A stretch of 64,000 nucleotides of DNA from Verrucomicrobiaceae bacterium (GTDB taxonomy: Bacteria > Verrucomicrobiota > Verrucomicrobiia > Verrucomicrobiales > Verrucomicrobiaceae): positions 124,001 through 188,000 of the forward strand of contig JAIBCL010000013.1 of the NCBI GenBank assembly GCA_019694165.1. The letters are read 5' to 3'. The notes under the pieces were generated by a model. That model saw nothing but the letters and a program-made list of their open reading frames with translations, made no database searches and was not told the DNA's origin. The position numbers were made by a program, and so were the translations under genes. Below, one piece after another: positions 1,893-62,158 of this stretch (the first letter of the stretch is position 1; every line of letters begins with the position of its first letter).

Positions 1893-1943
1893 ATTCCTGC
1901 TCCCGGCCAAACTCCTGCAAGACATTCATCTCGCTCAAATCCC

Positions 1944-3932: not shown

Positions 3933-3974
3933 TCCCGACTGGCGAGCAGCTACCCTTTTACCATCTCAACCGCC

Positions 3975-5690: not shown

Positions 5691-5741
5691 GTCATGTTCA
5701 CCATACAGCATCCCGCAATTCATCCATCGTACCCGATACCC

Positions 5742-7394: not shown

Positions 7395-7489
7395 GATCTG
7401 GCGGGGTGGCCTTGGGGGATTTGTGTTTCCCACGGCCCGGGGGGGGGAACACTTCATTGAAGGCTGTGCGCCGAGGCATTCGTATTCCT

Positions 7490-7603
7490 GAGGTGCGCAC
7501 CAAGTTCGTATTCCTCGCCGCCGGTACCCTGGCGGGTTCCTTCTCCGCCGCCACGCTCGCCGCCTCCAAGAAAGCGCGCAAGGATGTGGCCGTGGAGAAG
7601 TGA
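7490..7603 (+). pseudogene. C-terminal scrap of a decayed LRR paralogue
   Basis: The last codons read ATLAASKKARKDVAVEK followed by a stop at 7603, nearly the same as the C-terminus of array copy 2 (ALAAFKKARKDVEVEK). Upstream of about 7540 no LRR or module sequence is recognisable, and no plausible start exists. It is best read as the remnant of another array member, lost by deletion between copies 4 and 5. Confidence 0.65.
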
Positions 7604-7655
7604 ATCCCCGCTGTCAGCCAGACTCCCGCGAACCATTCACCCCGCCCCAAATCCA

Positions 7656-43443: not shown

Positions 43444-44538
43444 TTATTTTTCATCGGTGAGATCGACGGCGTGGTTGAACTGACGGTACGGCAGCCCCAG
43501 CTTCTCTCCGCCGTAGCGCAGGGATTTCAAGATGTTCTCCTCCTCGATGGCCAGCGCGGTTTCCACCGGTTTGTCGGAAAGCGTGGGCAGCTTCTCCACG
43601 CCGCGCTGCTTCACCAGCGCCAGCATCGCGGCCATCTGCACGCCGGGTTTGTCTGGAAAGGTGGCCCAGTACTTCTCCGTCAGGCACGGAATGCGCAGCG
43701 GATCACGAGTGATCATCTCCAGGTTCACCGTCGCGGCCGGAGCCACCTTTTCGATGCGGCGCAGCATCCGCGGCAGATCAAGGATGCCCTCGCCCAGCGG
43801 CACTTCTGAGAGCAGGAAACCTTCGGGGCACGACTGCACGGCCATGTCCTTGATGTGCGTGGTCACGACGAAGGGTGCCAGCGTCTCCACCGTCGTCATC
43901 GCGTCCTCCAACAGCGCGAGGCTGTTCCCCGTGTCGAGGCAAGCGCCGATGTGCGGACTCGCAAGCCTGCCGAGCATCTCCGCCAGCTCCGCGGACTCGA
44001 AGTCCTTGTGGTTCTCGATGCCGATCTTCACGTCATGCCGGTGCGCCACCGGTGCGGCAAGCTGCATCGAGCGCCAGGCGCGCGCCTTGAATGTCTTGAA
44101 CTCCTCCAGCCGCGAATACAGCTCGTAGCGCCGGCCGCCGACGGCGCTGCGGAAAACGCCGGCCCCAGCCTCTTTGCCCGCGCGCAGGTCCTTGTCGAAG
44201 CGCGCCACATCCCCCTCGTCCTTCGGCAGCGTGATGCTCCCTTCAAGATAGAGTCCGTAAGAGTCGAGCGTGGCGCGCACCTCCCGTGCAAACTCGCGCG
44301 TCCAGCCTTCCACTCCGGTCTGCAGTCCCGCCGCGCTGATCTCGCGGCAGTGATCCAGCACATCGAGCGCCGTCTCGAAGGGCGGATGCTTCACGCTCGA
44401 GTGCTTCCCGCGCCAGCGCTTTGAGTACGAGTGGATCACCAGCCCCATGCGCTTCGGCGGCACATCCACGACCGCCGCGGCACCCCGCCATGCGGCAGCG
44501 GCACCCAGCCCGGTGATGAGTCGTCGGCGGTCGATCAC
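43444..44538 (-). CDS. Exported sugar isomerase/epimerase-like TIM barrel
   Basis: 364 residues with an apparent twin-arginine-like signal (DRRRLITGLGAAAAWRGAAA). The barrel has VKIGIENHKDFESAELAEML, IGACLDTGNSLALL and VVTTHIKDMAV, carrying the Glu, Asp and His metal ligands of the xylose-isomerase-like superfamily. Exported members are common in Verrucomicrobia and Planctomycetes; substrates are mostly unknown. It is divergent from kinase 1 (183-bp gap) and leads into the PQQ-like gene. Confidence 0.83.
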   Translation of the reverse strand: MIDRRRLITGLGAAAAWRGAAAVVDVPPKRMGLVIHSYSKRWRGKHSSVKHPPFETALDVLDHCREISAAGLQTGVEGWTREFAREVRATLDSYGLYLEGSITLPKDEGDVARFDKDLRAGKEAGAGVFRSAVGGRRYELYSRLEEFKTFKARAWRSMQLAAPVAHRHDVKIGIENHKDFESAELAEMLGRLASPHIGACLDTGNSLALLEDAMTTVETLAPFVVTTHIKDMAVQSCPEGFLLSEVPLGEGILDLPRMLRRIEKVAPAATVNLEMITRDPLRIPCLTEKYWATFPDKPGVQMAAMLALVKQRGVEKLPTLSDKPVETALAIEEENILKSLRYGGEKLGLPYRQFNHAVDLTDEK

Positions 44539-44721
44539 GTCGCATACTCAAACGCACCATCCCCGGCGTTCAAGCGCCGAAACCGAGAGACGCATGGCAC
44601 TCCACGGACGGCCAACCTCGTCCCGGCCCGGCAGTGCGTCGCGTCGCTTCAAACCGGAAAAAAGCGTCGCCAAATCCAGAGCATGTGGGCTAGGATGCCC
44701 GCTGGTTTCCCCCGAGAACCC

Positions 44722-47700
44722 ATGGACGACTCCGCTTCAACTCAACCGCGCCCTCCCTCCTCCCGAGCCGGCTCTTCCGGTGCTGGGTGGAAGCCTCCGA
44801 GCGTGGAGCATCTTCAGGCGTTGCTGCCGCAGTATGAGATCATCTCCATGCTCGGCCACGGCGGCATGGGCGCGGTTTACAAGGGCAAGCAGAAATCGCT
44901 GGACCGCATGGTGGCGATCAAAATCCTGCCGCCGGGGATGGAGGACGATGACGCGAACTTCACCGAGCGCTTCAAGAACGAAGCGCGCACGATGGCGAAG
45001 ATGATGCATCCGGGCATCGTCGCGGTGTTTGATTTCGGCGAGATCCATGAAGGTGGGGCGCTTGCTCCCGCAAGCGCCGCCCGGACGCCGCGCCCCTCCG
45101 ATGCTACGAGCAACCCAACGGACAGTTCTCCGTCTCCCGCGGCGGCTGGCGGAGCAGCCGCCCTACCATCTGGCCCGCCGCTGCTCTACTTCATCATGGA
45201 ATACGTCGATGGCACGGACGTGGCGAAGATGATCCAGGCCAGCGGCAAGCTGCCTGCCGATCATGCGCTCGCGATCACCGCGCATGTCTGTGATGCGCTG
45301 GCCTATGCGCACTCGAACGGCGTGATCCACCGCGACATCAAGCCGGCGAACATCCTCATCAACATGCAGGGCCAGGTGAAGGTCGCCGACTTCGGCCTCG
45401 CAAAGATGGACGACCCCTCGCAGACCAGCGGCCTCACGAAGACCGGCATGGCGATGGGCACGCCGGACTACGTCGCGCCCGAGGCGCTGATCATGGGCGT
45501 GAATGTCGATGGTCGCGCCGACCTCTACGCCATCGGCGTCATGCTCTACCAGATGCTGACCGGCGAGATACCGCGCGGCCTGTTCCTGATGCCGAGCGTG
45601 AAGACGAATGGTGAGATCGATCCGCGCTTCGACAAGATCATCACCCGCGCGATGCAGACGGACCGCGAGGCGCGCTACCAGCAGGCGACGGAGATTCGGA
45701 AAGACCTCGATGTCATTCTGACCGCGCCGCGCGTGAAGCAGGATGCTTCCAAAGCCGTGGCCGCCGTGCCGCAGGGCGCGGTGAAAAATGTGCCGGGGCA
45801 AAGAAGCGCCGCACAGCCGCCCCCCGACCGTAGGCCGGGTGTGGCGCAGCCCGCCCGGCCCGCGCACGAATCCCCGAATGCGCCCGGCAAAGGCGAAGCG
45901 AACGCACCGCCAGCCGGGCGGGCCAAGGCCACACCCGGCCTACAGTCCGCGGCCGCGCCAGGCGCGAAATCCAAAACCGGTCTCTGGCTCGGCCTCGCCG
46001 CCGGAGCCGTCGTGCTCATCGGCGGCGCGGTGTTCTTTCTCGGTGGCGACAAGCAGCCCATGGCGGAATCCGCCAAGGATGACGGACGTAGCGAAATCCG
46101 CCAGGATTCCGCCGCCAAAGGAACGCTGGCGCGCCCCGCTACGAGCACGGGGCCGGTCAAAGTGGCCGAGCCGCCGAAGAAGCCCTCCGCAGCACCATCG
46201 CCCGCCATCGCCACGACGAACGCTTCGCCGCAGGAGCAGTGGGTGGACGTGCTGAAGGAGTATCTCGCCCGCCCGGCCGACAAGCAGCGGGAGAGGGGCA
46301 TCGAATCCACACCGGAAGGCGTGAAATTCACCAAAGCCGGAGCGACCTTCCCCTTCAACGCGTCGCTCAGAGAAATACCAAACGTGGCCCTGCGCGCCAC
46401 CGTGCGTGGGGTCAAGGGTGGCCTCAACCTGGTCGTGCGGACTTCGGGCACTCCACCCGAGAAAAACATGCGCGATTACCAGGCGATTTTGCAGTCCGAT
46501 GGCAGCGTCACGTTCAAGCGCTATGACATGACCCAGCCCGGGCCCAGCGTCGAATTGAGCCGCTCTGCGCCCATACCGGGTTTTTCCCCCGACGCCCGCC
46601 ATATCTTCGAATTCCGCGCCGTGGGCGATGTGCTCACCGCGACGCTGGATGGGGGTGTGCTCGAGCCCATCCGCGATGCCTCGTTCACAAATGGCGGCAT
46701 CGGCCTCGTCGGCTATCCCGGCATGATCGTGGAGAAGCTGGAGGTGGCCGACCTGACGGGCGTGAAACCCGCGGCGGCGGAGGAGCAGTGGGTCGATGTG
46801 CTGAAGGAGTATTTCGCCCGGCCGGCTGATCAGCGGCGGGAGAAGGCCATCGAGCCCTCGCGGGAGGGCGGGAAAGTCACGGAAAGGGCCAACTTCAACA
46901 TCTCGCCCGGCGAGAAACAGAATGTCGCCCTGCGCGCCACCGTGCGTGGGATGAACAACGACCTCAACTTGGGCGTGCGGGGTTCGGGCGGCGTAACCGC
47001 GAAAATCGCGCGCAACTACCGAGCATCGTTCGCCCCCGATGGCAGCGTCAGGATCATTCGCTACGACCTGACCCAGCCGACGGTGGATACCGAGCTGAGC
47101 AAATCTGCGCCCATCCCGGGCTTTTCCCCCGACGCCCGCCATACCTTCGAATTCCGCGCCGTGGACGACGTGCTCACCGCGACGGTGGACGGCCGGGTGG
47201 TCGGTCCCGTCCGCGATGCCTCGTTCACGAAGGGCGGTCTCGTCTTCGTCGGCAATCCCGGCATGATCGTGGAGAAACTGGAGATGGCCGACCTGACGGG
47301 CGTGAAGACCGCGGCGGCGTCTGCGGGCGGCGGCGGCGAGAAGTGGGTGGACGCACTGGCCGAGGTGTTGGCCAAGGGGCCGGGCAGTTCGGCCGACGCT
47401 CTCGCAAAGGTCGCCGATGGGGTGGAGGTCAAGCGACGCGATCCCCCCATCGGTCTTCCCCTTGGTCCACGAGGCTCGTTGCGCGACTACGCGTTGCGGG
47501 CGCGGGTCCGTCCCATCAATGTTTCGTTGCAGTTCTCTTTGCGCACTGCCGGCAGCATCACGAATGGCGATATGCACAGCTATGTGGCGGACTTCAAATC
47601 GGACGGCAGTGCGACGATTCGCCGACGGGATGCGAACGACAAATTCGTGGAGCTCGGCGCGTTCCCGGCGATCCCCGGTTTCGACAAATCAGCGTGGCAC

Positions 47701-50700
47701 TCCCTGGAGTTCCGCGCTGAGGGCGAAGTGCTGACCTTGCGTGTCGATGAACAGACGGTCGGCACCGTGCGCGATTCCACGTTCAGCAGCGGCGGCGCTT
47801 ATTTCGTCTGCGACACCGGCATGATCATCGAGAAGCTGGAGTATGCCGACCTGACGGGCGTGAAGCCCGCGGCGGCTGTCGCCTCATCTTCCCTGCCCGT
47901 CATCACCGGCTGGCAGGACTTGATGGGCGCGGCGAAGAAAGAGATTCCGCGAGTGGGCCAGACCGGCGTGAAGGAGGACAATGGCTGGCTGGTCGCCAGC
48001 AATTTCAAAGGCACGGCCGGCGTGGCGCTCGGCGAGAAGCACTTTAAGGACACCGCCATGCGCGGACGCGTGCGCGGGTATCTCTCTGCGGTGCTGCGGC
48101 ACAACGAAGCACTGCCAGGCAACTATATCGTGAGATTCCAGAAGAACGGCACCGGCTCCATCCTTCAGCTTACCAGCAACCCGCGAAAGGAAACGGTGCT
48201 CGCGAGCTTCACGATGAGCAGCGCCCCGGAGCACGACTTCCTCGTCACGATGACCGGGCCGGACATCCGCCTCTGGGTGGACGGCACGCTCGCAGCCACG
48301 GCGCGCGACACCACCATCGCCAGCGGCGTGCCGGGCATCACTCTTGCGGAGGAAGGTGCCGCCTTCCGCGACCTCGCCGTCGCCGAGCTGCCGGCGGATT
48401 TCGCCAGCAAGCTCGCGCCCGTCGATGCCTCGGGCGGGCCGTGGATAGATGCCATCGCGAAGGTGTATCCTCCCGGCACGAATCTCCCCAGTTCGTTGGT
48501 GCGCGAGGGCGCCGGCATCTACCTGACCCCGCAGGCAACGGGGGCCGCCACGCTGTGCACCCTCAACAATCTCCGCGACTTCGAGATTCGCATCACGGCC
48601 AGGTGCGATTCGCCCAAAGGCTATTGGAACATCTCCGCACGCGATTCGTCGCAGGACGGAAAGCGGTCCCAATACGTGATGAATGTGTTTTCATCCGGCG
48701 GAGGGAAGGTGGACTTGCAAAGCCGCAATGGGAAGCTGCCGGAGCCGAGCGTAACGCTGGGCAGCAGCGCGGCCCCGCCGGGCTTCGACATCACGAAGGA
48801 GCACACGCTCCACGTCCGCCTCCAGGGAACACGCATCATCGTGCGGCTCAACGAAGCTGAGGTCATCAACGCGGAGGATGCGACCGCCTCAACCGGTCAA
48901 TTCTTCATCTACTCGCAGCTTGGGGGCATTCATCTCTCGAAGATTGAATACCGCGAGCTGCCGCCTGCCAAAGCGTCCGCCGCTGCGGCGAGCGGCAGCG
49001 AGAAATGGGTGGACGGCCTCGCCGAGTGGTGGGCCGATCCCAAGAATACGAACAGCGCCAGGATGGTGAAGGAAGCCGGAGGTTCGCGGCAGGTCGATGC
49101 CTTTGGAGCTGGTATCGCGCGTGACTTCAAGGATGTCGCCCTGCGGGTCCGGGCCGTTGGCGGCGCGAGCACGGACTTTTACAAGCTGAACCTGCGCTTG
49201 GGCAACGGGGGCTATCAGGCCCACCTGAAGAAAGAGGGGAAAGGTTTCATCTACCGCGGCGAGGTGAACCCCGAAGGCAAGATGCAATACGTGACACTGG
49301 CGAGCTTCGATCTCCCCGCCGGCTTCTCCATCACCGAGCGGCACGAGATGGAGTTCAGCGTGATCAAGGACGTGATGGAATTGTTCCTCGATGGCCAGAA
49401 GGTCGCCACGGCGCGCGACAGCGTGCGCACCCACGGCGCGATCTCCATCGAAGGAAAGGGCGCGTTGTTCGAGAAGTTCGAATACCGCGAGCTGGGCGAG
49501 AACTCCGCCGCGCCCGCACCCGCCGTGGCATCGGGCGAGAAGTGGATCGACGCACTCACACCAGCCCTCGCGAGCTGGAAAGGTGGCAGTTCGTGGAAAC
49601 CATCTGGCACCGGCCTCGTGACCGTCGAATACCAGGGCTTCGGCTTCGTTCCAACGCATTTCACCGACATAGCGGTCCGCGCCACGGCGCGCTGTAGCGA
49701 TGCGAATGGCTTGTGGCAGGTCAGACTGCGGGCAACCGTAACGGCGGAGCAAGGACAAGCGGGCTATAAAGCCATTCTGTCCTCCGACGGGCAGGGGCGC
49801 ATCCAGATGGAGACAGGTGGCAAGCCCACCGATCTCCAAACCTTCACGATGCCCGCCGGCTTCTCGATCACCGACAGCCACACGATGGAGTTCCGTGCGC
49901 AAGGCGACCGCCTCAGCCTCGCCGTGGACGGCCGCGAAGTCGCCACCGCGCAGGATTCCACGCTCCGCAGCGGCCTGTTCAACCTGCTCGGCCAGCCAGG
50001 GACCGTATTCGAGAAGGTGGAGTATCGCGAGCTGACAGGCTCGCCGGGTGCCGCTGCATCGAGCGAGAAATGGATCGACGGCCTCGCCGAGTGGATGAGC
50101 GCCGGAAACAAGGGCGACGTGCTGGAGAAGCCCGACGCATCCGGGGCCAGGCTCGTCGCGAAGCCGCTGGGAGTGACTTGCGGCACTGCCTCGATGAAGG
50201 ACGTGTCCATCCGTGCCACGCTGCGGGCGCAGACGGTCGGCATCGGCGACATGTTCGGGTTCGTGGTGCGCGGCCAGATCAAGGGCGACGGTTACCTGGT
50301 CAAGGTGGATGGGAAGAGCGGACGCATCCACCGCCAAAGCGGGGGACAGGGCACGGTGCTGAAGGCTTTTGAGATGCCCGCGGGCATTTCGATGAAAGAC
50401 ACGCACACCGCCGAGTTTCGCGCACAAGGCGGCGTGCTCACCTTCCTCCTCGACGGCCAGGAACTGGGCCGTGCGCAGGACACCGCATTCACCAGCGGCA
50501 GCATCTACTTCTTGGCCCAGAGGCCGAACGAGATCCTCCTGAGCAAGCTGGAGTATCGCGAACTGCCCGCCGCGCCCGCCGCGGTCTCCCCCAAGAAATC
50601 CGCCGCGACCCCAGCGCCGCCGCCTGCCGCACCCGGCGGAACGCTGGCGCGTCCCGCTACGACTGAGCCGCCGCCACTCCCCGCTGAACTCGCCGCGCTC

Positions 50701-51984
50701 GATGCACAGTTCATCAAGCTGCAGGCCGAGCGCGTCGCCGCGCCGTTTGAGGCCGAAATGGCGAAACTGAACGCCAGCTACGTCGGCGGCATCGCCAGGA
50801 AAATCACGGAGGAGAAAACTGCGGGGCATCTCGATGCCGTCCTCGCGCTGGAGGCGGAGCAAAAACTGCTCGCCGACAAACAGCCCGTGCCGGAGAGCGA
50901 TGACGACAAGACGCCCGCCGGTCTCAAAGACCTGCGCAAGATCTACCGCGACGCCTTTGCCAAACTCGTCGCGACCCAGGCGGCAAACCTCAAAGACCTG
51001 ATCGTGCCGCTGGAGAAACGCCTGGTGCAGATGGAGACGGATTTGACGAAGGCAGACCGCCTCGCCGATGCAAAGACGGTGCGCGCTTATCGTGAGGCGC
51101 TCACAGAAGATGGGGCAGGTGCTTCTGCGCCCGCCTCCCCGGCTGGCACCACGGGTGCGAGCACCCGAAGCGTGGCGCTTGCAGGAGCCAGCGCGCTGCC
51201 CAAAAACGTGAGCCCAGCCTCCGCGATCGCGCTGCGGGGCGGCATCACGAACACCCTCGGCATGAAGCTTGTCCCCGTGCCAGGCACCGACGTGCTGATG
51301 TGCATCCACGAGACGCGCTACAAGGACTACGCCGCGTATGCCACCGAGGTGCAGGGCGTGGATGCCAAGTGGAAAGATCAAACCATCGAGGGCATCCAGA
51401 TCACCGACCGGGCCGAGGACCACCCCGTCATCAATACGAGCTGGGATGACGCGCAGGCGTTCTGCGCCTGGCTGGGCAAGAAAGAAGGCAGGACCTACCG
51501 CCTGCCCACGGACAAGGAGTGGAGCTTCGCCGTCGGCATCGGACGCAAGGAGAAATGGGGGAGTGACACCCCTCCAGCCTCGCTGAGCCACAAGATAGAT
51601 ACCGAGTGGCCGTGGGGTGAAAACTTCCCGCCCAGGACCCGGGACAAAGCCGGGAACTACAACGACATGAGCCATGACGAGAAAAACGGAAGTTATCTCA
51701 AGGGCTACAAAGACGGCTACCCGACCACCGCGCCCGTGATGAGCTTCAAGCCCAACAAGCTCGGCATCTACGACCTGGGCGGCAACTTGTTTGAGTGGGT
51801 TGAGGACTGGTATGACGGTGAGCAAAAAGAACGGACTCTGCGTGGTGCCTCCTGGTCTCACGCCGATCGCGGCTATCTGCTGTCGTCCGGCCGCTTTCGC
51901 TCCGGCCCCGGCGCACGTACCACCGCCTACGGCTTCCGTGTGGTGTGGGTACCAGGGTCCGCTGCCGAGCCGCCGCGCCCGTGA
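44722..51984 (+). CDS. Giant membrane Ser/Thr kinase with LamG-like repeats, shared helical module and FGE-like domain (kinase 1)
   Basis: 2420 residues from the ATG at 44722, the start matched in kinase 2. Cytoplasmic Hanks-type kinase: G-loop GHGGMG (45-50), Lys67, HRD (203-205), DFG (223-225), APE. A repeat-derived Ala/Pro/Ser insertion (110-151) splits the N-lobe. A Pro/Ala linker leads to one membrane helix (about 421-441), so the rest is outside the membrane: eight modules of about 165-180 residues (from about 503 to 1949), each with W(V/I)D-L near the start, F-FRA near the end and a final LEYRELP-type motif, probably LamG/DUF1080-like sandwiches; the shared helical module (about 1988-2129); and an FGE-sulfatase-like domain (about 2173-2410; GMKLVPVPG, LPTDKEWSF, YDLGGNLFEWVEDW, GFRVVW). 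The FGE cysteines are missing, so this domain probably binds a ligand. Confidence 0.9.
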   Translation: MDDSASTQPRPPSSRAGSSGAGWKPPSVEHLQALLPQYEIISMLGHGGMGAVYKGKQKSLDRMVAIKILPPGMEDDDANFTERFKNEARTMAKMMHPGIVAVFDFGEIHEGGALAPASAARTPRPSDATSNPTDSSPSPAAAGGAAALPSGPPLLYFIMEYVDGTDVAKMIQASGKLPADHALAITAHVCDALAYAHSNGVIHRDIKPANILINMQGQVKVADFGLAKMDDPSQTSGLTKTGMAMGTPDYVAPEALIMGVNVDGRADLYAIGVMLYQMLTGEIPRGLFLMPSVKTNGEIDPRFDKIITRAMQTDREARYQQATEIRKDLDVILTAPRVKQDASKAVAAVPQGAVKNVPGQRSAAQPPPDRRPGVAQPARPAHESPNAPGKGEANAPPAGRAKATPGLQSAAAPGAKSKTGLWLGLAAGAVVLIGGAVFFLGGDKQPMAESAKDDGRSEIRQDSAAKGTLARPATSTGPVKVAEPPKKPSAAPSPAIATTNASPQEQWVDVLKEYLARPADKQRERGIESTPEGVKFTKAGATFPFNASLREIPNVALRATVRGVKGGLNLVVRTSGTPPEKNMRDYQAILQSDGSVTFKRYDMTQPGPSVELSRSAPIPGFSPDARHIFEFRAVGDVLTATLDGGVLEPIRDASFTNGGIGLVGYPGMIVEKLEVADLTGVKPAAAEEQWVDVLKEYFARPADQRREKAIEPSREGGKVTERANFNISPGEKQNVALRATVRGMNNDLNLGVRGSGGVTAKIARNYRASFAPDGSVRIIRYDLTQPTVDTELSKSAPIPGFSPDARHTFEFRAVDDVLTATVDGRVVGPVRDASFTKGGLVFVGNPGMIVEKLEMADLTGVKTAAASAGGGGEKWVDALAEVLAKGPGSSADALAKVADGVEVKRRDPPIGLPLGPRGSLRDYALRARVRPINVSLQFSLRTAGSITNGDMHSYVADFKSDGSATIRRRDANDKFVELGAFPAIPGFDKSAWHSLEFRAEGEVLTLRVDEQTVGTVRDSTFSSGGAYFVCDTGMIIEKLEYADLTGVKPAAAVASSSLPVITGWQDLMGAAKKEIPRVGQTGVKEDNGWLVASNFKGTAGVALGEKHFKDTAMRGRVRGYLSAVLRHNEALPGNYIVRFQKNGTGSILQLTSNPRKETVLASFTMSSAPEHDFLVTMTGPDIRLWVDGTLAATARDTTIASGVPGITLAEEGAAFRDLAVAELPADFASKLAPVDASGGPWIDAIAKVYPPGTNLPSSLVREGAGIYLTPQATGAATLCTLNNLRDFEIRITARCDSPKGYWNISARDSSQDGKRSQYVMNVFSSGGGKVDLQSRNGKLPEPSVTLGSSAAPPGFDITKEHTLHVRLQGTRIIVRLNEAEVINAEDATASTGQFFIYSQLGGIHLSKIEYRELPPAKASAAAASGSEKWVDGLAEWWADPKNTNSARMVKEAGGSRQVDAFGAGIARDFKDVALRVRAVGGASTDFYKLNLRLGNGGYQAHLKKEGKGFIYRGEVNPEGKMQYVTLASFDLPAGFSITERHEMEFSVIKDVMELFLDGQKVATARDSVRTHGAISIEGKGALFEKFEYRELGENSAAPAPAVASGEKWIDALTPALASWKGGSSWKPSGTGLVTVEYQGFGFVPTHFTDIAVRATARCSDANGLWQVRLRATVTAEQGQAGYKAILSSDGQGRIQMETGGKPTDLQTFTMPAGFSITDSHTMEFRAQGDRLSLAVDGREVATAQDSTLRSGLFNLLGQPGTVFEKVEYRELTGSPGAAASSEKWIDGLAEWMSAGNKGDVLEKPDASGARLVAKPLGVTCGTASMKDVSIRATLRAQTVGIGDMFGFVVRGQIKGDGYLVKVDGKSGRIHRQSGGQGTVLKAFEMPAGISMKDTHTAEFRAQGGVLTFLLDGQELGRAQDTAFTSGSIYFLAQRPNEILLSKLEYRELPAAPAAVSPKKSAATPAPPPAAPGGTLARPATTEPPPLPAELAALDAQFIKLQAERVAAPFEAEMAKLNASYVGGIARKITEEKTAGHLDAVLALEAEQKLLADKQPVPESDDDKTPAGLKDLRKIYRDAFAKLVATQAANLKDLIVPLEKRLVQMETDLTKADRLADAKTVRAYREALTEDGAGASAPASPAGTTGASTRSVALAGASALPKNVSPASAIALRGGITNTLGMKLVPVPGTDVLMCIHETRYKDYAAYATEVQGVDAKWKDQTIEGIQITDRAEDHPVINTSWDDAQAFCAWLGKKEGRTYRLPTDKEWSFAVGIGRKEKWGSDTPPASLSHKIDTEWPWGENFPPRTRDKAGNYNDMSHDEKNGSYLKGYKDGYPTTAPVMSFKPNKLGIYDLGGNLFEWVEDWYDGEQKERTLRGASWSHADRGYLLSSGRFRSGPGARTTAYGFRVVWVPGSAAEPPRP
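45049..45177. repeat. In-frame repeat element inside the kinase domain (kinase 1 copy)
   Basis: It is bounded by GGTGGGGCG and CCGCCCTACC. The inner hairpin arms are GGCGCTTGC/GCAAGCGCC and GGCGGCT/AGCCGCC. It encodes residues 110-151 and is identical to 58530-58658 in kinase 2. Confidence 0.75.
45830..45943. repeat. GTAGGCCGGGTGTGGC palindromic repeat (kinase 1 linker)
   Basis: GTAGGCCGGGTGTGGC at the left end is the exact reverse complement of GCCACACCCGGCCTAC at the right end; an inner CCCGCCCGG/CCGGGCGGG pair adds to the fold. It encodes part of the Pro/Ala juxtamembrane linker. Confidence 0.8.
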
Positions 51985-52328
51985 CGAGCTTCAGGCCCGG
52001 CGAAGCAAAGCACGCGGCATCGAAACAGCTTCCGTTGTCATGGGCCAGGAAAAGGACACCAAACCCGGCAGTAAAAGTTTTTGTTGTTTTGAAACGCGGC
52101 GCGGTGCTTTACGATAATAAATGCATGAATGCTTTTCTTTGCCCTCCCGCCGCCAGGGCGCGGCGAATACCAATGCCGTCTGGAAATAAAACACCCGGAC
52201 CCCGCGCCATCGGAAATGCTCAAGGCGCACGATCGGTCCCCCCCTCCTCCCGGACCTCTCCCGCAAGGAGAGGAAGCAGAACGATCTGCCGCCCGGCGAT
52301 GCAAAGCACGCTCTCGCCCCAGCACGAA
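51985..52328. other. 344-bp intergenic region upstream of the PEP-CTERM gene
   Basis: It contains an AT-rich patch (about 52070-52140) with a promoter-like pair, and a hairpin CCTCTCCCGCAAGGAGAGG (about 52254-52272) of a common repeat type. No gene seen. Confidence 0.5.
52089..52118 (+). promoter_or_regulatory. Promoter-like sequence upstream of the PEP-CTERM gene
   Basis: TTGAAA (52089-52094) and GATAAT (52113-52118) are separated by 18 bp inside an unusually AT-rich patch of this GC-rich genome. The ATG is 210 bp downstream, giving a long leader that holds a hairpin. Confidence 0.4.
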
Positions 52329-53036
52329 ATGAACACTCACCCACACTTCCCGCCCGGCATCGTAACCAATGGCCGCGCTCGTTCGCTCGCGCTGATCGCA
52401 GTGTGCCTCATCCTCGCCATCACCCTCGCCCCACAAGCCCAAGCGGCGACCGTGGTTTCCAATTTGGGGAATACGTCCGATGGCTCCCTTGCCGTAAACA
52501 ACTTAACCGGCCCTCTCGGATTCGCAGGAGTCGATGCCGCTAATTCTTTTACAACCGGTGCGGCTGCCACGCTGGAAAGTGTGACCCTGAGTCTTTCCGG
52601 CTTCGGAGTCGTCGACTTCAAAGTTGCGCTATACCTTGATAGCGCCGGGCTCCCGGGAACCAGCTTGGTGACCCTGACGGGCAACAGTAACCCAAGCAGT
52701 TTGGGTCTATACACCTACACGGGAACCTACGCGCTTGCCGCCTCGACGACATATTGGGTGGTGGCCTCCGTGCCGCACGACGTCGCTGTCAACCACCTTG
52801 CCAATTGGTATTCGACGACCAACCCCTCGGAAACCGGGCAGCCAGGCTGGAGCATCGGAGACGGAAGCGCTCAGCGCCATTGGTCCAGCGGCGTGCCGGA
52901 GGCTTGGGCGGGCAGCGACCGAGCTCTGCAGTTCTCCGTCGAAACCATGTCAGTGCCCGAACCGGGGAGAGCGACCTTGCTGTTTGGCAGCGTCTGCCTC
53001 GCCACCGTCCTGCGGCGCCGCCGAGTGGCGCACTGA
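52329..53036 (+). CDS. PEP-CTERM-sorted protein with choice-of-anchor-R-like domain
   Basis: 235 residues from the ATG at 52329. Signal peptide (residues about 18-40, SLALIAVCLILAITLAPQAQA), then a beta-rich domain beginning VVSNLGN and including ANSFTTG, LESVTLSLSG, GLPGTSLVTLTG and TYWVVAS, typical of choice-of-anchor R. The C-terminus has VPEP, a hydrophobic stretch and RRRR, the PEP-CTERM signal processed by an exosortase for surface anchoring. No exosortase is in the window. Role unknown, likely part of the extracellular matrix. Confidence 0.85.
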   Translation: MNTHPHFPPGIVTNGRARSLALIAVCLILAITLAPQAQAATVVSNLGNTSDGSLAVNNLTGPLGFAGVDAANSFTTGAAATLESVTLSLSGFGVVDFKVALYLDSAGLPGTSLVTLTGNSNPSSLGLYTYTGTYALAASTTYWVVASVPHDVAVNHLANWYSTTNPSETGQPGWSIGDGSAQRHWSSGVPEAWAGSDRALQFSVETMSVPEPGRATLLFGSVCLATVLRRRRVAH

Positions 53037-53107: not shown

Positions 53108-56100
53108 CTACGGCAGCGTCACGACCACCTTGCCGAACAACTCCACGACCGCCGTGCCGTCGAACGGCTCCAGTTGCACGACGCGCTCCCAGTTCGCATT
53201 GATGGCCGTCACCGTGGGAGTCGAAGTCAGGTTCGACCAGTTGATGAGATCGGGGGACTTCTTCGGCGTGTAAACCAGCCCGCTACCGATGCGGCGGATG
53301 AACTCGTAGCGGAAGAACGATGCCGCGCCGCTGCCGGTGCGATCATAGGCCGGCAAGCCGGTGGTGCCGGTGCCGGGAGCAAGCGTGCCAACGTCCACGG
53401 CGGCGGGATTCATGTTGAAGGCGTACTTGAGCAGATTCGAGACCCCATCGCCCGCTGGATTCGCCGTCGGCGCGAGACTGGCACCGGTGAGGCCGCTGCT
53501 CGTTCCCCAGTTGTTGAAGGCCGCATTTTGCGCCACGCCGCTGATGGGGAAATCAAACATGGCTTCGTCCGCGTCATTGTTGTTGATCACGACGCTGCCG
53601 CTGAAGGTGCCGGTGCTCGTGGCATCGAGCCGCACTTGGAAGGTATGCGTCGCCGCAGCGGCGATGGCCGCGCCGGGCGCATTGAGCACGGTGAAGCCAG
53701 ACGGCGCCGTGATGCTGCTCACGATGAGCGCGGCGCTGCCGGTGTTGGAGATCGTGAAATCGCGCGTTATCGCGGTGCCTTGCGCTGTGTAGCCAAAGTC
53801 CACCACCGCCGCCTGTCCGTCCGTGAGCTGCGGCGCGCCGGTGGTCGCGCCGTTGTGCAGGGTGATCTCGGGAATGCCCGTGGTGGTGAAAAATCCGTCG
53901 GCAGTGATGCCAGTGCCGGAGGCGTTGGTGGCGGTGAGCCGGTAATGATAAATGGTGCCGGGTGTGAGGCTGCCGACGGCGGCAATCACAGCCTGCGCCG
54001 AGCTGCCATCGTTGGGGGACAAGGTCACGCTCGCGCTGTGAGTGTAGCTGGTGGTCAGTCCGAACTCGAACTGCGCCGTGGTGGTCTGGCCGTTGGGATT
54101 GACCGTGCCATTGAGCGTGGCTCCGGTGGTGGTGATGGATGTGGCACCGCCCAATGTCACCGCAGGAGGCAGCGCGGACACAATAGCCTGTGCGAGGTAG
54201 GGCGAGACTTTCCCACCGGCGCTGGTGAAGAAGCCGCCCACATAAAGGCTGCCGCCGGAAACAGCCAGCGCATATACGGAGTTGTTCAGTCCCGAGCCCA
54301 GGGCCGACCACGCCGTTCCATCCCATCTGGCGATGCGGCTGGCGGACACGCCGCCTGCCGTGGTGAAGTCCCCCGCCGCATACAGATCGCTCCCGGAGAC
54401 GGCCAGTGCGCTGACGGTGGAAGAGCTGTTCATGCCGCTCCCCAGCGCGAACCAGGCGATGCCATCCCAGAGCGCGATGCTGTTTACCGTCACCCCCCCG
54501 GCGGTGGTGAAGCTGCCCGCCGCGATCACACTGCTGCCGGAAATGGCGAGCGCCTTGACATCTCCGTTGGTTCCCGCCCCCAGGGCGGACCACGCGCTGC
54601 CGTTCCATCTGGCGATGCGGCTGGCGGCCACGCCGTCCGCATTGGTGAAGAGGCCTCCGGCGTAGAGGTTGCTGCCACTCGCCGCGAGCGCATACACGGA
54701 GGAGTTCATGCCCAGGCCCAGCGCGGACCAGGTGCTGCCATTCCATTTCGCGACACGATTCACCGCCACGCCGCCTGCCGTGGTGAAGCCGCCTCCCGCA
54801 TACAGGTCGCCGCCGGACACCGCGAGCGCGGAGACGGAGGAGTTCATTCCGGCGCCCAAAGCGGACCACGCGCTGCCATTCCATCTGGCGATGTAGTTCG
54901 CCGTGACACCGCCCGCCGTGGTGAACATGCCTCCGGCGATCAAGTCGCCGCCGTAAGCGGCCAGGGCGAGAATCTGGTTGTTGGTGCCTGACCCCAATGA
55001 GGACCAGGCGCTGCCGTTCCATTTCGCAATGTAGTTCGTCGTCGATGGCAAATTGCCTGCCGCAGTGAACGGCCCGCCCACATACAAATCACCGCCCACC
55101 ACCGCGAGCGCCGCCACGCTGGCATTGAATCCCGGGCCTGTCGCCGACCAGGCGCTGCCATTCCAGCTCGCGATGTAATACATGAACTCGGCGCTGTTGC
55201 CCGAGAGGGTGAAGTCACCGCCCGCGTGCAAGGTGCTGCCGGTGACCGCGAGCGCGCGCACGGTGGCGTTCAATCCCACGCCCACGGACGACCAGGCCGT
55301 GCCGTTCCACTTCGCTACACGCGTGGCAGGGGCGCCGCCGGCGTTCAAGAAGGCGCCCGCCACGTAAACGTCAGTGCCCGCCATCGCCACGGAGGTCACG
55401 GCGTTGTCCACGCCGAGTCCGAGATTGGACCAGAAGCTGCCGCTGATGTTCCATTTGGCGACGTAGTTGCACGGTCCGCCGCCCGTGGTGGTGAACCCGC
55501 CGCCAGCATAGAGTTCGTTACCAGAAACCACCAGCGCCGAGACATTGCCGTTCGTCCCGGCACTCACATCCGACCACGCGCTGCCGTTCCACTTGGCGAT
55601 GTTGCCGGCCGTCAGTCCGCCCGCCGTGGAGAAGCTGCCTCCGGCGACGATGTAGCTCCCCGCAGCCGCGAGCGCCGAGACGACGTTGTTCATTCCCGTG
55701 CCCATGGCCGACCACGCGCCGCCGCTCCACCTGGCGATGCGATTGGCCGTCACCCCGCCCGCAGTCGTGAACGCACCGCCCGCATAGACCACGCCGTTGG
55801 AAACCAGCAGCGAGAAAACCAGGCTGTTCATGCCCGTGCCGAGCGCCGCCCAGGTGCTGCCATCCCACTTGGCGATGCGGTTCACAGTCACGCCGCCGGC
55901 GGTGGTGAAGTCACCGCCGGCATACAAATCGGTGCCTGACACGGCCAGCGAACGCACGGTGTTGTTCGCGCCCGCGCCCAGCGCCGACCAGGTGCTGCCA
56001 TTCCACCTGGCGATGTTGCTGGCCAGCGCCGTGCCGACGATGGTGAAGGTGCCGCCGATGTAGAGATCGCCCGTCCCTGTGGTGACCATGGCGAGGATGC

Positions 56101-56935
56101 CGGATCCATTCGCGCCGCGCAGCCCGCCCATGCTGATCCAGTCCGCATCGCTGAACGTGGGATCAATGCGCACGGGATAGACTGCTGATTCATCTTCCAC
56201 CAGCACACGGACACGATCCGGCGCAGGCACCTCGAATCGCGCCCGCAGTTCCTTCCCGGCGGCATCAGTGACTTTCAGCCGGCTGTATGCCAGTTCGCGA
56301 CCAGTGGCCAGCACCGTCAGCTTCACACCATACGAAGCGGATTCCGCACAAGCGCCCGCTGCCTCCAAATCCACCACCAGCATTCCTTCGCCGCCCGCCG
56401 GCCGCCGGGTCAGCACAAAGTCCTGCCGCACTCCGTCAGCGCTCACCGTGTATTCTTCCATGACTCCAGGACGGAGAAACACGGCGGCCTCCGTGCTCGC
56501 CTGAACGATGCCTTCATGCCCGAGGGCGAACGCGCTGAACGGACTGCCGGATGAGGAGCGGCGGGAAACCTCGATGGCTTTCACGCGGAAGCGGTTGGGC
56601 GTGGCCGCGTCCTCATCCGCAGTGGAGGAAATCCACAGTCCATCTCGCGTGGCCTCGCCCTCCAGGTCTTGCATCACCGCCGTGAGCCTGGCCCCGCTCT
56701 TCGTTGGCGTGACGCGGCCATCATTTCCCGGTCGCTGCTTTTGCACCTCGGCTCCGAGCTGGTCAAAAGGAATGGCAACTGGCGGCAGCCGCGTCGCCAC
56801 AGGCGACACCTCGCGCTGCAAGCTGTCTGCCAATGCAAAGCCGAAGCTCATGGATCCCGCCACTGCGGTTAGCAACGCAATGCGGGCAATCGGCACGGAT
56901 GTTGTTTTCATGGTGGTGGTCAGGGTGTTGGCCAT
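53108..56935 (-). CDS. Large secreted repeat protein (13 tandem 46-residue repeats, Fn3-like and ASPM/choice-of-anchor-D-like domains)
   Basis: 1275 residues from the ATG at 56935; an ATG at 56911 gives an equally good signal peptide (KTTSVPIARIALLTAVAGSM). After a beta-rich N-terminal region come 13 full repeats of about 46 residues plus a partial one (coding about 56060-54180), consensus AGG-FTTAGGV-AN-IAKWNG followed by SAWSALG-GMN and V-ALAVSG--LY, similar to kelch or delta-60-type propeller blades. Then an Fn3-like domain (ATLNGTVNPNGQTTTAQFEFG), a choice-of-anchor-D-like domain (DFTISNTGSAALIVSSI) and a C-terminal segment with NLLKYAFNMNP, common in verrucomicrobial secreted proteins and perhaps a sorting region. 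It is probably a surface adhesin or matrix protein. Confidence 0.85.
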   Translation of the reverse strand: MANTLTTTMKTTSVPIARIALLTAVAGSMSFGFALADSLQREVSPVATRLPPVAIPFDQLGAEVQKQRPGNDGRVTPTKSGARLTAVMQDLEGEATRDGLWISSTADEDAATPNRFRVKAIEVSRRSSSGSPFSAFALGHEGIVQASTEAAVFLRPGVMEEYTVSADGVRQDFVLTRRPAGGEGMLVVDLEAAGACAESASYGVKLTVLATGRELAYSRLKVTDAAGKELRARFEVPAPDRVRVLVEDESAVYPVRIDPTFSDADWISMGGLRGANGSGILAMVTTGTGDLYIGGTFTIVGTALASNIARWNGSTWSALGAGANNTVRSLAVSGTDLYAGGDFTTAGGVTVNRIAKWDGSTWAALGTGMNSLVFSLLVSNGVVYAGGAFTTAGGVTANRIARWSGGAWSAMGTGMNNVVSALAAAGSYIVAGGSFSTAGGLTAGNIAKWNGSAWSDVSAGTNGNVSALVVSGNELYAGGGFTTTGGGPCNYVAKWNISGSFWSNLGLGVDNAVTSVAMAGTDVYVAGAFLNAGGAPATRVAKWNGTAWSSVGVGLNATVRALAVTGSTLHAGGDFTLSGNSAEFMYYIASWNGSAWSATGPGFNASVAALAVVGGDLYVGGPFTAAGNLPSTTNYIAKWNGSAWSSLGSGTNNQILALAAYGGDLIAGGMFTTAGGVTANYIARWNGSAWSALGAGMNSSVSALAVSGGDLYAGGGFTTAGGVAVNRVAKWNGSTWSALGLGMNSSVYALAASGSNLYAGGLFTNADGVAASRIARWNGSAWSALGAGTNGDVKALAISGSSVIAAGSFTTAGGVTVNSIALWDGIAWFALGSGMNSSSTVSALAVSGSDLYAAGDFTTAGGVSASRIARWDGTAWSALGSGLNNSVYALAVSGGSLYVGGFFTSAGGKVSPYLAQAIVSALPPAVTLGGATSITTTGATLNGTVNPNGQTTTAQFEFGLTTSYTHSASVTLSPNDGSSAQAVIAAVGSLTPGTIYHYRLTATNASGTGITADGFFTTTGIPEITLHNGATTGAPQLTDGQAAVVDFGYTAQGTAITRDFTISNTGSAALIVSSITAPSGFTVLNAPGAAIAAAATHTFQVRLDATSTGTFSGSVVINNNDADEAMFDFPISGVAQNAAFNNWGTSSGLTGASLAPTANPAGDGVSNLLKYAFNMNPAAVDVGTLAPGTGTTGLPAYDRTGSGAASFFRYEFIRRIGSGLVYTPKKSPDLINWSNLTSTPTVTAINANWERVVQLEPFDGTAVVELFGKVVVTLP
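54180..56062 (-). repeat. Array of 138-bp tandem coding repeats
   Basis: About 13.5 units of roughly 138 bp encode the 46-residue blades of the secreted protein. Several neighbouring units are close at the DNA level (for example the CGCCGGCGGTGGTGAA stretch recurs in most), as expected from unit duplication. Confidence 0.75.
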
Positions 56936-57281
56936 TCAGTTGATTGGCTTCAGTGAAATGTCTCGAAATCGTCCCGCCGTTGTTGCATTCCTGGCTGACA
57001 AAATTCCCGGTTCGCCGGGCCCGTGCCACAACCTTTGGGGTGAGATAATCCCCGGCGGACTGCCCTTCCCTATCGTTCGTGGTGGCGTGGAAAACCCGCC
57101 GTCCCGCATCCAATGCCACATGTTCATGGCATGGGGACTTGAGCCGACGCCTGATGCACAGGCGTTGCTTGGCCCATGCGCAAACCTCTTTTCGACAATC
57201 TCACCGGGCCAGTCCGGCAGCAGCCTTGGCTCCCGGCGCTTGTGATCCCCCGGTTTTGCGACAGTCTTGCCGCCTCCACCC
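56936..57281. other. 346-bp divergent intergenic region
   Basis: It lies between the starts of the secreted repeat protein and the sigma factor gene and should hold promoters for both. No clear promoter, hairpin or gene was recognised. Confidence 0.45.
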
Positions 57282-58058
57282 ATGCCCGACAACCTGCCCA
57301 GCAGCCCCATCGAGCACGATGTGAAGCATCGCGACTCGCTTCTGGGCGTGGCCTTCCCCACCACCCAGTGGAGCTTGGTGCTGCGCTCGCAGCAGGACGG
57401 TGCTGAGGCGCAGGTGGCGATGAACAATCTCTGCCGCCAGTACTGGTATCCCATCTACGCCTACCTGCGCTGCCGCGGCTTCGAGCGGCCCGATGCGCAG
57501 GACATCACGCAGAGCTTCTTTCTCATGGCCGTCACCGGCGGGCTCTTTGAGGCTGCGCAGCGCGAGCGCGGCAAGATGCGCTCCTTCCTCCTCGGCGCGC
57601 TCACCCGCCATATCGCCGATCACTTGCGCCGCCAGCACGCAGCAAAGCGTGGCGGCCGCGCCATCGTGCTGCCGCTCGAAGTCGAAACGGCGGAGGAAAA
57701 ATACAGCAACGAACCCGCCGACCAGCGCGACCCCGAGACTCTCTACCTCGCCGCGTGGGCCAGATCGCTCATCGACACCGCGCGCCAGCGGCTGCGAAAG
57801 CACTTGGAAAGGAAGGGCCGGCAAGAACTCTTCGATCAACTGCAAGCCGTGATCGAGATGGAGGATACCGACACGCCTTATTGCGACCTCGCCGTACAAC
57901 TAAGAGCAAGTGAGGCGTCACTGCGCCTGCAAGTCTTCCGTCTCCGCCGCAGGTTCGGCAAGTTGCTGCGCGAAGAAGTCGCCAAGACAGTCGAGACTCC
58001 CGAGGAGGTCGAAGATGAACTCGCCTGGCTCGCGACGGTGTTGCAGCAAGGCAATTAG
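57282..58058 (+). CDS. ECF-type RNA polymerase sigma factor
   Basis: 258 residues from the ATG at 57282. Sigma region 2 spans about 45-118 (LCRQYWYPIYAYLRCRGF, DAQDITQSFFL) and region 4 about 160-232 (ASLRLQVFRLRRRFGKLLR forming the recognition helix). It is longer than typical ECF factors, with an extended linker (120-160). ECF factors next to a Ser/Thr kinase gene are a known planctomycete/verrucomicrobial arrangement (ECF-STK groups), where the kinase is thought to control the sigma factor instead of an anti-sigma factor. Kinase 2 begins 144 bp downstream in the same direction, and no anti-sigma gene is seen. Confidence 0.88.
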   Translation: MPDNLPSSPIEHDVKHRDSLLGVAFPTTQWSLVLRSQQDGAEAQVAMNNLCRQYWYPIYAYLRCRGFERPDAQDITQSFFLMAVTGGLFEAAQRERGKMRSFLLGALTRHIADHLRRQHAAKRGGRAIVLPLEVETAEEKYSNEPADQRDPETLYLAAWARSLIDTARQRLRKHLERKGRQELFDQLQAVIEMEDTDTPYCDLAVQLRASEASLRLQVFRLRRRFGKLLREEVAKTVETPEEVEDELAWLATVLQQGN

Positions 58059-58202: not shown

Positions 58203-61200
58203 ATGGACGACTCCGCTCCAACTGAACCGCGCCCTCCCTCCTCCCGAGCCGGCTCTTCCGGTGCTGGTTGGAAGCCGCCGAGCGTGGAGCATCTTCAGTC
58301 GTTGCTGCCGCAGTATGAGATCATCTCCATGCTCGGCCACGGCGGAATGGGCGCGGTTTACAAGGGCAAGCAAAAGTCGCTCGACCGCATGGTGGCGATC
58401 AAGATTCTGCCTCCGGGCCTCGACGACGAGGACGCGAAGTTCGTCGAGCGCTTCAAGAACGAGGCGCGCACGATGGCGAAGATGAATCACCCCGGCATCG
58501 TCAGCGTGTACGATTTCGGCGAGATCCATGAAGGTGGGGCGCTTGCTCCCGCAAGCGCCGCCCGGACGCCGCGCCCCTCCGATGCTACGAGCAACCCAAC
58601 GGACAGTTCTCCGTCTCCCGCGGCGGCTGGCGGAGCAGCCGCCCTACCATCTGGCCCGCCGCTGCTCTACTTCATCATGGAATACGTCGATGGCACGGAC
58701 GTGGCGAAGATGATCCAGGCCAGCGGCAAGCTGCCTGCCGATCATGCGCTCGCGATCACCGCGCATGTCTGTGATGCGCTGGCCTATGCGCACTCGAACG
58801 GCGTGATCCACCGCGACATCAAGCCGGCGAACATCCTCATCAACATGCAGGGCCAGGTGAAGGTCGCCGACTTCGGCCTCGCAAAGATGGACGACCCCTC
58901 GCAGACCAGCGGCCTCACGAAGACCGGCATGGCGATGGGCACGCCGGACTACGTCGCGCCCGAGGCGCTGATCATGGGCGTGAATGTCGATGGCCGGGCC
59001 GACTTGTATGCCATCGGCGTCATGCTCTACCAGATGCTCACCGGCATGATCCCGCGCGGCATGTTCATGATGCCCAGCATTGTTAGCAAGCGTGAGGTCG
59101 ATCCACGCTTCGACGCCATCATCGCGCGCGCGATGCAGACCGACCGCGAGATGCGCTACCAGAGCGCGACGGAGATCCGCAAAGACCTCGATGTGATCCT
59201 GACCACGCCGCGCGTGAAGCCGGAAGCCTCCAAGGCCGCGGCCGCCGTGCCGCAGGGCGCGGTAAAAAATGTGCCGGGACAGCGCAGCGCCGCTCAGCCG
59301 CCGCCCGACCGTAGGCCGGGTGTGGCGCTGCCCGCCCGGCCCGCGCAGGAATCAGCGAATGCGCCCGGCAAAGGCGTTGCGAACGCACCACCTGCCGGGC
59401 GGGCTAAAGCCACACCCGGCCTACGTCCCGCGCCCGCCGCGAAGCCCAAACCGCAATCCGCGGCTCCCAATCCCAAACCCAAGACCGGCCTCATCATCGG
59501 CATCGCCGCCACGCTCGTGATCGGTGGCGGATTGGTTTTCACGCTCGGTGGAAAAAAGAATAGCGCCGAGACCGCCGCCGCCGGATCATCAGCTTCAACC
59601 AGCAGCGACACCAAAAGCGCCGCCGCATCCTCCGCGCCGATCAAGGTCAGCGACTCCAAGCCCGGCGCGGATAGGGCAGCGGCTCCGCCAGCCACCACGA
59701 GTGGCCCTGCGGGAACGACATCAACATCGGCGGCGCTTGCAGGAGCAAGCGCCCTACCCGGCGCATCGTCGCCCGCCGCCGAGTCGTGGCAGGACATGCT
59801 CCGCGATCCTACGCTGCTCCGCATCCCCCGCGCTGCGGACGGTTCAGAGCGCGTGCAGCGGGCGAAGGAGGGCCTGCGCTTCGTGACCTCAGTCACCGCG
59901 ACAATCCCCGATTCAATGGTGAAGGCCGACGGTGCCATCCGCATGCGCTCCGTCCTCGGGAAGCCGGGCACGCTGCGTCCAAATCTCAGAGCCCGGCACG
60001 GCAGCACTGGGCATTACCAGGCGGGGATGCGCGACGAGAGCACCGTCGAAATCATCCGATACACCCGAGATGCCGGCAAGGCCACAAGACTGCGGGACTT
60101 CCCCATCGCGAAGCCTCTGGCGGATAACGAACCGTATCTGCTCGAACTCCGTGCCGTCGGCACGTCGCTCACGGCGAAGCTCAACGGGATCGAGCTTGGG
60201 TCGGTGACAGACGCGCAATTGGCCAGCGGCTCATATGAGATCGCTGTCAGCCCCCAGCAGGGCGAGCCAGTCATGGTCACGAGCTTCGAGTTTCTCGACC
60301 TGTCGGCGTCCGGTGGAGCGCCGTTAGCCGCACCTGCCGCCGCGACGAAGGACGCGCCGTTTGTGAATTCGCTCGGGATGAAGTTCGTCCCCGTGCCGAT
60401 CACCGGCGGGCCGACGGATGGGAAGCGCGTGCTCTTCTCCGTGTGGGAGACGCGGGTGCAGGACTACGAGGCGTTTGTGACCGAGACGAAGCGCTCCTGG
60501 CGGAAAGCGGGATTCGAGCAGGATCCCGCGCATCCAGCGGTGCAGGTCACTTGGGAGAGCGCGAAAGAGTTTTGTGCATGGCTCACCGAGCGCGAGCGCA
60601 AAGCAGGCAAACTCGCGCCTGACGAAGCGTATCGTCTGCCAAGCGATCACGAGTGGAGCTGCGCCGCCGGCATCGGCGCCAGCGAGGATGCATCCCCCGG
60701 TCCGGGGGCGAACAGCGCCCGGGGCGACAAACAGGTGGGCGGATTTCCCTGGGGCGACCAATGGCCGCCGCCCGCAGGATTCGCCAACTACAGTGGAGAG
60801 GAAATCCAGAGTGTGCCGCCGATCCCGGACCAGAAGCTGATCGCCAGTTTCCGCGACCCCTTTCCCTACACGAGCCCAGTCGGGAGCTTTGCGCCGTCGG
60901 CGAATGGCCTCTTCGACCTGAGCGGAAATGTTAGCGAACTCTGCGAGGATGTAGCGGACTTCAAGGCGATTCCCGGAAAGGCCGATCCAGAGCGGATTGT
61001 GCGCGGCGCGAGCTGGTTCGACAGCGACAAGGACTTAATCCGCTGGTCTCGCCGCCACTGGGCTCCGCCAAAACTTCCCGGCAAGGAAGCAGGTTTCCGC
61101 GTTGTCCTCGCCACAGCCGCTTCCACGTCAGCAACCAACACCGGCGGAGCATGGCAGGAGGTGCTGCCGAATCTCGACATCACTCGCGCCATCGTGCAGG

Positions 61201-62006: not shown

Positions 62007-62086
62007 CGAAACTTCGCCAGGGTTCCGCCGCGGGCATCGGCTCCAGGCTATGCGCAGGCGGCGTGTTCCGGGCGTGTTTCCCTGCC

Positions 62087-62130
62087 GGCAGGTGGCCTGA
62101 AAACCAGTTGCCGCCTGCCGCATTTTGTTT
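62087..62130 (+). terminator. Likely Rho-independent terminator after kinase 2
   Basis: GGCAGGTGGC (62087-62096) pairs with GCCGCCTGCC (62110-62119; one G-T pair) and is followed by GCATTTTGTTT. It lies 81 bp after the kinase stop and 29 bp before the next start. Confidence 0.5.
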
Positions 62131-62158
62131 CAGACAACACAGCCACACCTTCAACGCC

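Follow-up and report, generated by a model that had tools for sequence, protein, structure and literature searches.

In single-pass kinases of the PVC group SUMF1 and DUF1080 domains are typical of the periplasmic part, and the long tandem arrays described for PVC kinases in the cited sections of Odelgard et al. (2024, PMC11032199) consist of WD40 (up to 19) and TPR (up to 15) repeats. Carbohydrate-binding modules of family CBM66 include members that bind fructan ends and one that binds xanthan side chains (PMC11002231), and the phosphorylation of ECF sigma factors by Hanks-type kinases has been documented in Xanthomonas and Vibrio (PMC13147305). Intragenic GTAG-type REP elements are known in Verrucomicrobia, being most numerous in Opitutus terrae (PMC3733652). 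The window, by which we mean the whole stretch of 64,000 nucleotides that was analysed, holds a gene for a very long receptor kinase (kinase 1) and, 3' of it, a sister gene (kinase 2), with the following features.

44722-51984, + strand: kinase 1, a single-pass receptor Ser/Thr kinase of 2420 aa (open frame, codon periodicity, hmmscan domains)
44833-45573, + strand: protein kinase domain, residues 38-284 (PF00069, E=1e-45)
45052-45167, no strand assigned: GTAG-type REP dimer of 116 bp, in frame, between kinase strands beta4 and beta5 (heads and geometry)
45970-46044, + strand: single transmembrane helix, about residues 417-441 (hydropathy maximum)
46234-46782, + strand: module M1, CBM66/ConA-like
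46783-47337, + strand: module M2, CBM66/ConA-like, 66% identical to M1
47338-47904, + strand: module M3, CBM66/ConA-like, in a clade with M1 and M2
47905-48435, + strand: module M4, CBM66/ConA-like, nearest to a module of another kinase, L052 (support 99/97)
48436-48999, + strand: module M5, CBM66/ConA-like, holding the best stretch for Pfam 3keto-disac_hyd
49000-49536, + strand: module M6, CBM66/ConA-like
49537-50064, + strand: module M7, CBM66/ConA-like, structure predicted (pLDDT 92.0, pTM 0.87)
50065-50562, + strand: module M8, CBM66/ConA-like
50674-51117, + strand: helical module H, about residues 1985-2130 (helices 2-49, 53-67, 82-126 and 130-147; pLDDT 93.9)
51283-51948, + strand: FGE-sulfatase-fold domain without the CxxxxC pair, residues 2188-2409 (PF03781, E=2.5e-32)
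57267-58058, + strand: ECF-type sigma factor 5' of kinase 2, candidate output of the pair (PF07638 match just over the cut-off)
58203-62006, + strand: kinase 2, sister kinase with one clear module and an FGE domain (start placed by alignment to kinase 1)

Kinase 1 is an intact gene, which we state with very high confidence, and encodes in this order a presumably cytosolic kinase, one transmembrane helix, the eight modules, the helical module and the FGE-fold domain. Positions 44425-51984 (+) form a single open frame with zero stops and no internal break, and third-position GC lies at 0.72-0.92 across all full 300-bp blocks of the kinase 1 frame, a continuous codon periodicity that fits neither several genes nor a decayed one. 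The claim of the earlier note that the region holds one gene is thus borne out by frame and codon bias alike, a search for internal stops or shorter genes having found none in this interval. Translation from the ATG at 44722 gives the 2420 residues; the similarity to kinase 2 starts at about 44711, just 5' of this ATG, and the open frame 5' of it overlaps a gene on the opposite strand. Directly 3' of kinase 1 lies a gene for a choice-of-anchor R domain protein (51945-53036, +). Between the two kinases there is also a gene (53108-56935, -) for a protein of 1275 aa that combines Rax2-type beta-propeller repeats, with a DNA period of 138 bp, and an Ig-like domain of the DUF1573 type, and just 3' of kinase 2 a 489-aa frame with a SAICAR-synthetase-like match of 51 bits (62000-63469, +).

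The catalytic motifs of kinase 1 are intact in the translation (the VAIK lysine, HRDIKPAN and VADFG), giving the complete domain with Lys, HRD and DFG that marks a Hanks-type kinase. The membrane helix is the single strong hydrophobic stretch of the protein and separates this kinase from the ectodomain. The N-terminal kinase is most likely cytosolic, with about 1,980 residues across the membrane in the periplasm, a topology that we infer from the family precedent in the cited sections of PMC11032199. An ectodomain beyond the membrane had been proposed earlier, and that much stands; its placement outside the cell gives way, on the same precedent, to a periplasmic one.

The eight modules, 166-189 aa each, start at residues 505, 688, 873, 1062, 1239, 1427, 1606 and 1782, the array ending at residue 1947. 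They are related yet diverged, as had been claimed, with pairwise identities of 17-66%, and share the invariant residues W3, D5, R48, Y77, G85, L100, H115, D140 and G146. The Pfam signals of the modules, for 3-keto-disaccharide hydrolase and LamG, are weak. Against PF06439 (3-keto-disaccharide hydrolase, DUF1080) the whole protein scores 52.2 bits with a cut-off of 26.8, and a single module, for which the genome search gave a score of its own, has 25.5 bits, below that cut-off. A larger alignment (A6) matches 4jqt strongly, a result that partly reflects the true DUF1080 rows included in it; the fair test of module identity is a profile of the kinase 1 modules only, free of such rows. The best PDB match of that profile, built from all eight modules, is the CBM66 of Bacillus subtilis levanase (E=1.3e-4). 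The AF2 model of M7 is a beta-sandwich for which the top five Foldseek matches are all CBM66 chains (best E=2.7e-10), and in VIA-align it superimposes on CBM66 4azz with a Z of 19.3 (rmsd 2.5, 152 aligned). The lectin-type domain of galactocerebrosidase reaches much the same value (Z 19.1), and the DUF1080 hydrolases come behind (Z 15-16). Judging from profile and predicted structure, we have high confidence that the modules are best described as having a CBM66/ConA-lectin-like fold; the term "LamG-like" used before holds at the level of the clan and fails for the closest match, which is of the CBM66 or 3-keto-disaccharide-hydrolase ConA-like type.

The length of the array is unusual, as had been supposed. 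Pkinase matches number 58 in the source genome, some being the two halves of a single split gene, and across the 51 kinase frames in which modules were counted there are 0-4 modules per frame, with eight in kinase 1 only. In 59 genomes of the family the next-longest array has three modules (E<=1e-15). The relatives that bear names belong to the Verrucomicrobiaceae and Akkermansiaceae, one being a "Prosthecobacter debontii" MAG of the same genus. A frame cut at a contig end (L101, C58:1-3080) has four modules and no visible kinase, and is maybe another multi-module kinase.

The helical module, also claimed earlier, is confirmed by AF2 as four helices. Compared with the PDB it gave nothing at E<=0.001, matches to long-helix proteins being uninformative. 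Many other kinases of the order have this module too, and it recurs in non-kinase genes that stand in a tandem row, five of them in the window (180-9404) and others upstream, where the row adjoins a helical-module kinase (L064). Two of the five window genes start with a signal-peptide-like stretch, and leucine-rich repeats were found in two of three scanned genes of the row.

The C-terminal head has the FGE fold, a profile of six family members matching the solved FGE 6s07 with E=1.9e-25. The catalytic LCHESYC of FGE aligns to SHADR (within RGASWSHADRG) in kinase 1, and both cysteines are absent; no restored cysteine was found, and the cysteine-less FGE fold described earlier stands. The stretch SSGRFRSGPG, previously taken for the catalytic position, falls a few residues C-terminal to the actual site. 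The lack of cysteines had further been read as a pointer to a binding head, which it does not provide: the CxxxxC pair is present in 0 of 42 FGE domains of related proteins. Across these sequences the absence is a family rule that by itself excludes FGE activity for the head and says no more, and, since every relative lacks the cysteines, it holds no special clue to the function of kinase 1. As FGE-type heads are in some cases variable proteins, we considered whether a diversity-generating retroelement acts on this one, and set the idea aside, the repeats of the window including no second near-identical FGE C-terminus.

Kinases 1 and 2 share 92% DNA identity over 1.27 kb, up to the membrane helix, and diverge beyond it. 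A second pair in the genome, L084 (C57:282k) and L085 (C57:321k), has 99.5% DNA identity across 1.6 kb, membrane helix included, with strongly diverged ectodomains and a sharp change between the two parts. The plain reading of these sequences is that each pair has a common kinase and a swapped ectodomain, and either gene conversion or recent duplication may account for the likeness of the kinase halves. A tree of 54 modules groups M1-M3 in one clade (95/90; M1 and M2 at 100/99), so that these three are tandem duplicates; in it M4 pairs with the L052 module and M8 pairs weakly with a module of L086. The well supported branches of this tree require at least two origins for the modules of kinase 1, and on this evidence the array owes some of its modules to tandem duplication (M1-M3) and some to exchange between kinases (M4).

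The kinase genes also carry REP dimers. The GGTAGGGCG heads have an adjoining hairpin and stand in inverted pairs, commonly 89-118 bp apart, as in GTAG REP dimers, and the dimer of kinase 1 has an identical counterpart in kinase 2 (58533-58648). L051, a homologous kinase with 86% DNA identity to an element-carrying one, lacks the insert at the same place, where the flanks align. Genome-wide there are 66 heads (<=1 mismatch) and none in a reversed control; of 65 re-found, 33 lie in kinase frames, which make up 1.9% of the genome, copies inherited by paralogues not being independent. With the kinases of relatives included, 26 of the 27 ectodomain heads fall in linkers, about 13 being expected inside domains. 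Complete dimers within kinases are mostly 3n+2 long, and other copies vary in length. The genome has 16 Y1_Tnp matches, which are candidates for a RAYT transposase. A further in-frame dimer of the window, at 59670-59758, is again in a kinase gene, and elsewhere a short and possibly decaying kinase frame (L105, C22:353-354k) has about four tandem 96-bp REP-containing copies in its kinase domain.

The reading that we prefer, and to which we give about an even chance, is that kinase 1 would be a sensor of envelope or exopolysaccharide glycans, possibly signaling through the ECF sigma factor beside kinase 2. The eight CBM66/ConA-like modules would bind glycan multivalently, the helical module would form a stalk or mediate oligomerisation, and the FGE-fold head would be a domain for binding and not for catalysis; clustering driven by the ligand could then raise autophosphorylation of the kinase and pass the signal inward, plausibly to that sigma factor. 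Of the earlier proposal of a sensor for glycans or proteins, the glycan part is plausible inasmuch as the best structural and profile match of the modules is a carbohydrate-binding module. The fold does not prove glycan binding, and the similar beta-sandwich of levanase BT1760, which does not bind levan (PMC6560043), is a reason to keep the assignment conditional. As to the output, sigma factors of one ECF family are encoded within 400 bp of 19 of the 51 kinase frames, kinase 2 being among them and kinase 1 not. Since kinases 1 and 2 hardly differ in their kinase halves, kinase 1 may target the sigma factor beside kinase 2, which we consider less probable than glycan sensing itself. Acidic residues persist in region 2.2 of this sigma factor (DAQDITQ), so the published charge-restoring mechanism of ECF43 may not apply to it.

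Protein ligands are possible for kinase 1 in view of the weak LamG similarity of its modules, which would then be LamG-type domains that sense or adhere to proteins of its own envelope or of the surface of other cells. Laminin_G_2 (PF02210) exceeds its cut-off for the whole protein (28.0 against 22.9 bits, with no single stretch passing), the LamG domains of SHBG and neurexin are among the weak profile matches, and the adjacent choice-of-anchor-R and beta-propeller proteins are both possibly exported. CBM66 and the ConA folds of glycosyl hydrolases, however, are far ahead of LamG in both profile and structure, and we regard a protein ligand as unlikely, if well within reach. The head might instead make the signal rather than bind it, as an enzyme with a chemistry other than that of the cysteine pair (as in EgtB and PvdO); the FGE superfamily does have members without the pair, and the head gives weak matches to PvdO and EgtB-type models, but with scores so far below the cut-offs of those families (54 of 500 bits for PvdO) that we think this very improbable. 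Assembly errors are common in long repetitive genes, and kinase 1 might accordingly be a set of shorter genes or a misassembled repeat. No result of the analysis points that way. The unbroken codon bias of its stop-free frame and the divergence of its repeats, with no more than 87% DNA identity over 229 nt in the closest pair, argue against it, and with the gene internal to a 192-kb contig we see next to no chance of such an artefact.

Instead of marking a designed rod, the length of the array may also be an evolutionary by-product, grown by recombination under little selection with only some modules binding. The recent tandem duplication of M1-M3, the exchange of parts among kinase genes in this genome and the want of more than three strong modules per frame in any other sampled genome of the family are all consistent with this, whereas the divergence of modules that nevertheless keep their invariant residues, in a frame intact over 7.3 kb, suggests selection; such a by-product is to our minds decidedly unlikely. 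A broader proposal, which is doubtful but somewhat more credible, is that of a rapidly recombining repertoire, in which near-identical kinase halves would serve a common output, lectin-type, helical and FGE-fold parts would be swapped and amplified, and the REP dimers at junctions would be possible sites of recombination, with kinase 1 as the most expanded product. If true, this repertoire would be the bacterial counterpart to a family of glycan receptors that diversifies. Returning to the glycan sensor, if the modules do bind glycans then kinase 1 combines, in a bacterium, a multivalent receptor for glycans and a eukaryote-like kinase, and there is in this genome a natural series, from 0 to 8 modules on one output, for the tuning of signaling by valency. 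The pairs with near-identical cytosolic halves and unrelated ectodomains make the exchange of sensor parts directly testable.

Among described systems, PknS-EcfK and PknT-EcfP (PMC13147305) likewise place the gene of a transmembrane Hanks-type kinase, here kinase 2, beside that of an ECF sigma factor, although kinase 1 has no adjacent sigma factor and the local one is acidic in region 2.2, unlike the ECF43 consensus. The intragenic GTAG REPs of PMC3733652 resemble those found here in being palindromes arranged as inverted dimers and translated in frame into some tens of residues; the notable targets in that work are DNA-repair genes, whereas half of the present copies lie in kinase genes, a concentration that we did not find described there. 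The best single-sequence PDB match of the head is SUMF2 (pFGE; E=3.4e-18), which has the same fold, belongs to the same sequence family and also lacks CxxxxC in the alignment. FGE/SUMF1 shares the fold and sequence family as well, but its catalytic cysteine pair is absent from the head, and in contrast to both proteins it is bacterial and C-terminal on a receptor kinase. The modules find their best profile and fold match in CBM66, founded on the SacC levanase module of Bacillus subtilis (4AZZ, 4B1L, 4B1M), to which they are 17-19% identical, and are joined to a kinase where the CBM66 founder is joined to a hydrolase. With the PVC receptor kinases, as described in the cited sections of PMC11032199, kinase 1 has in common a cytosolic Pkinase domain, one transmembrane helix, SUMF1/FGE and DUF1080-clan domains on the opposite side and membership of multi-copy families; the arrays in those sections are of WD40 and TPR only, whereas kinase 1 has eight DUF1080/CBM66-like modules and a helical module. 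Hence the parts and layout of kinase 1 are already known in the PVC group, and its length marks the extreme of a mix-and-match receptor family.
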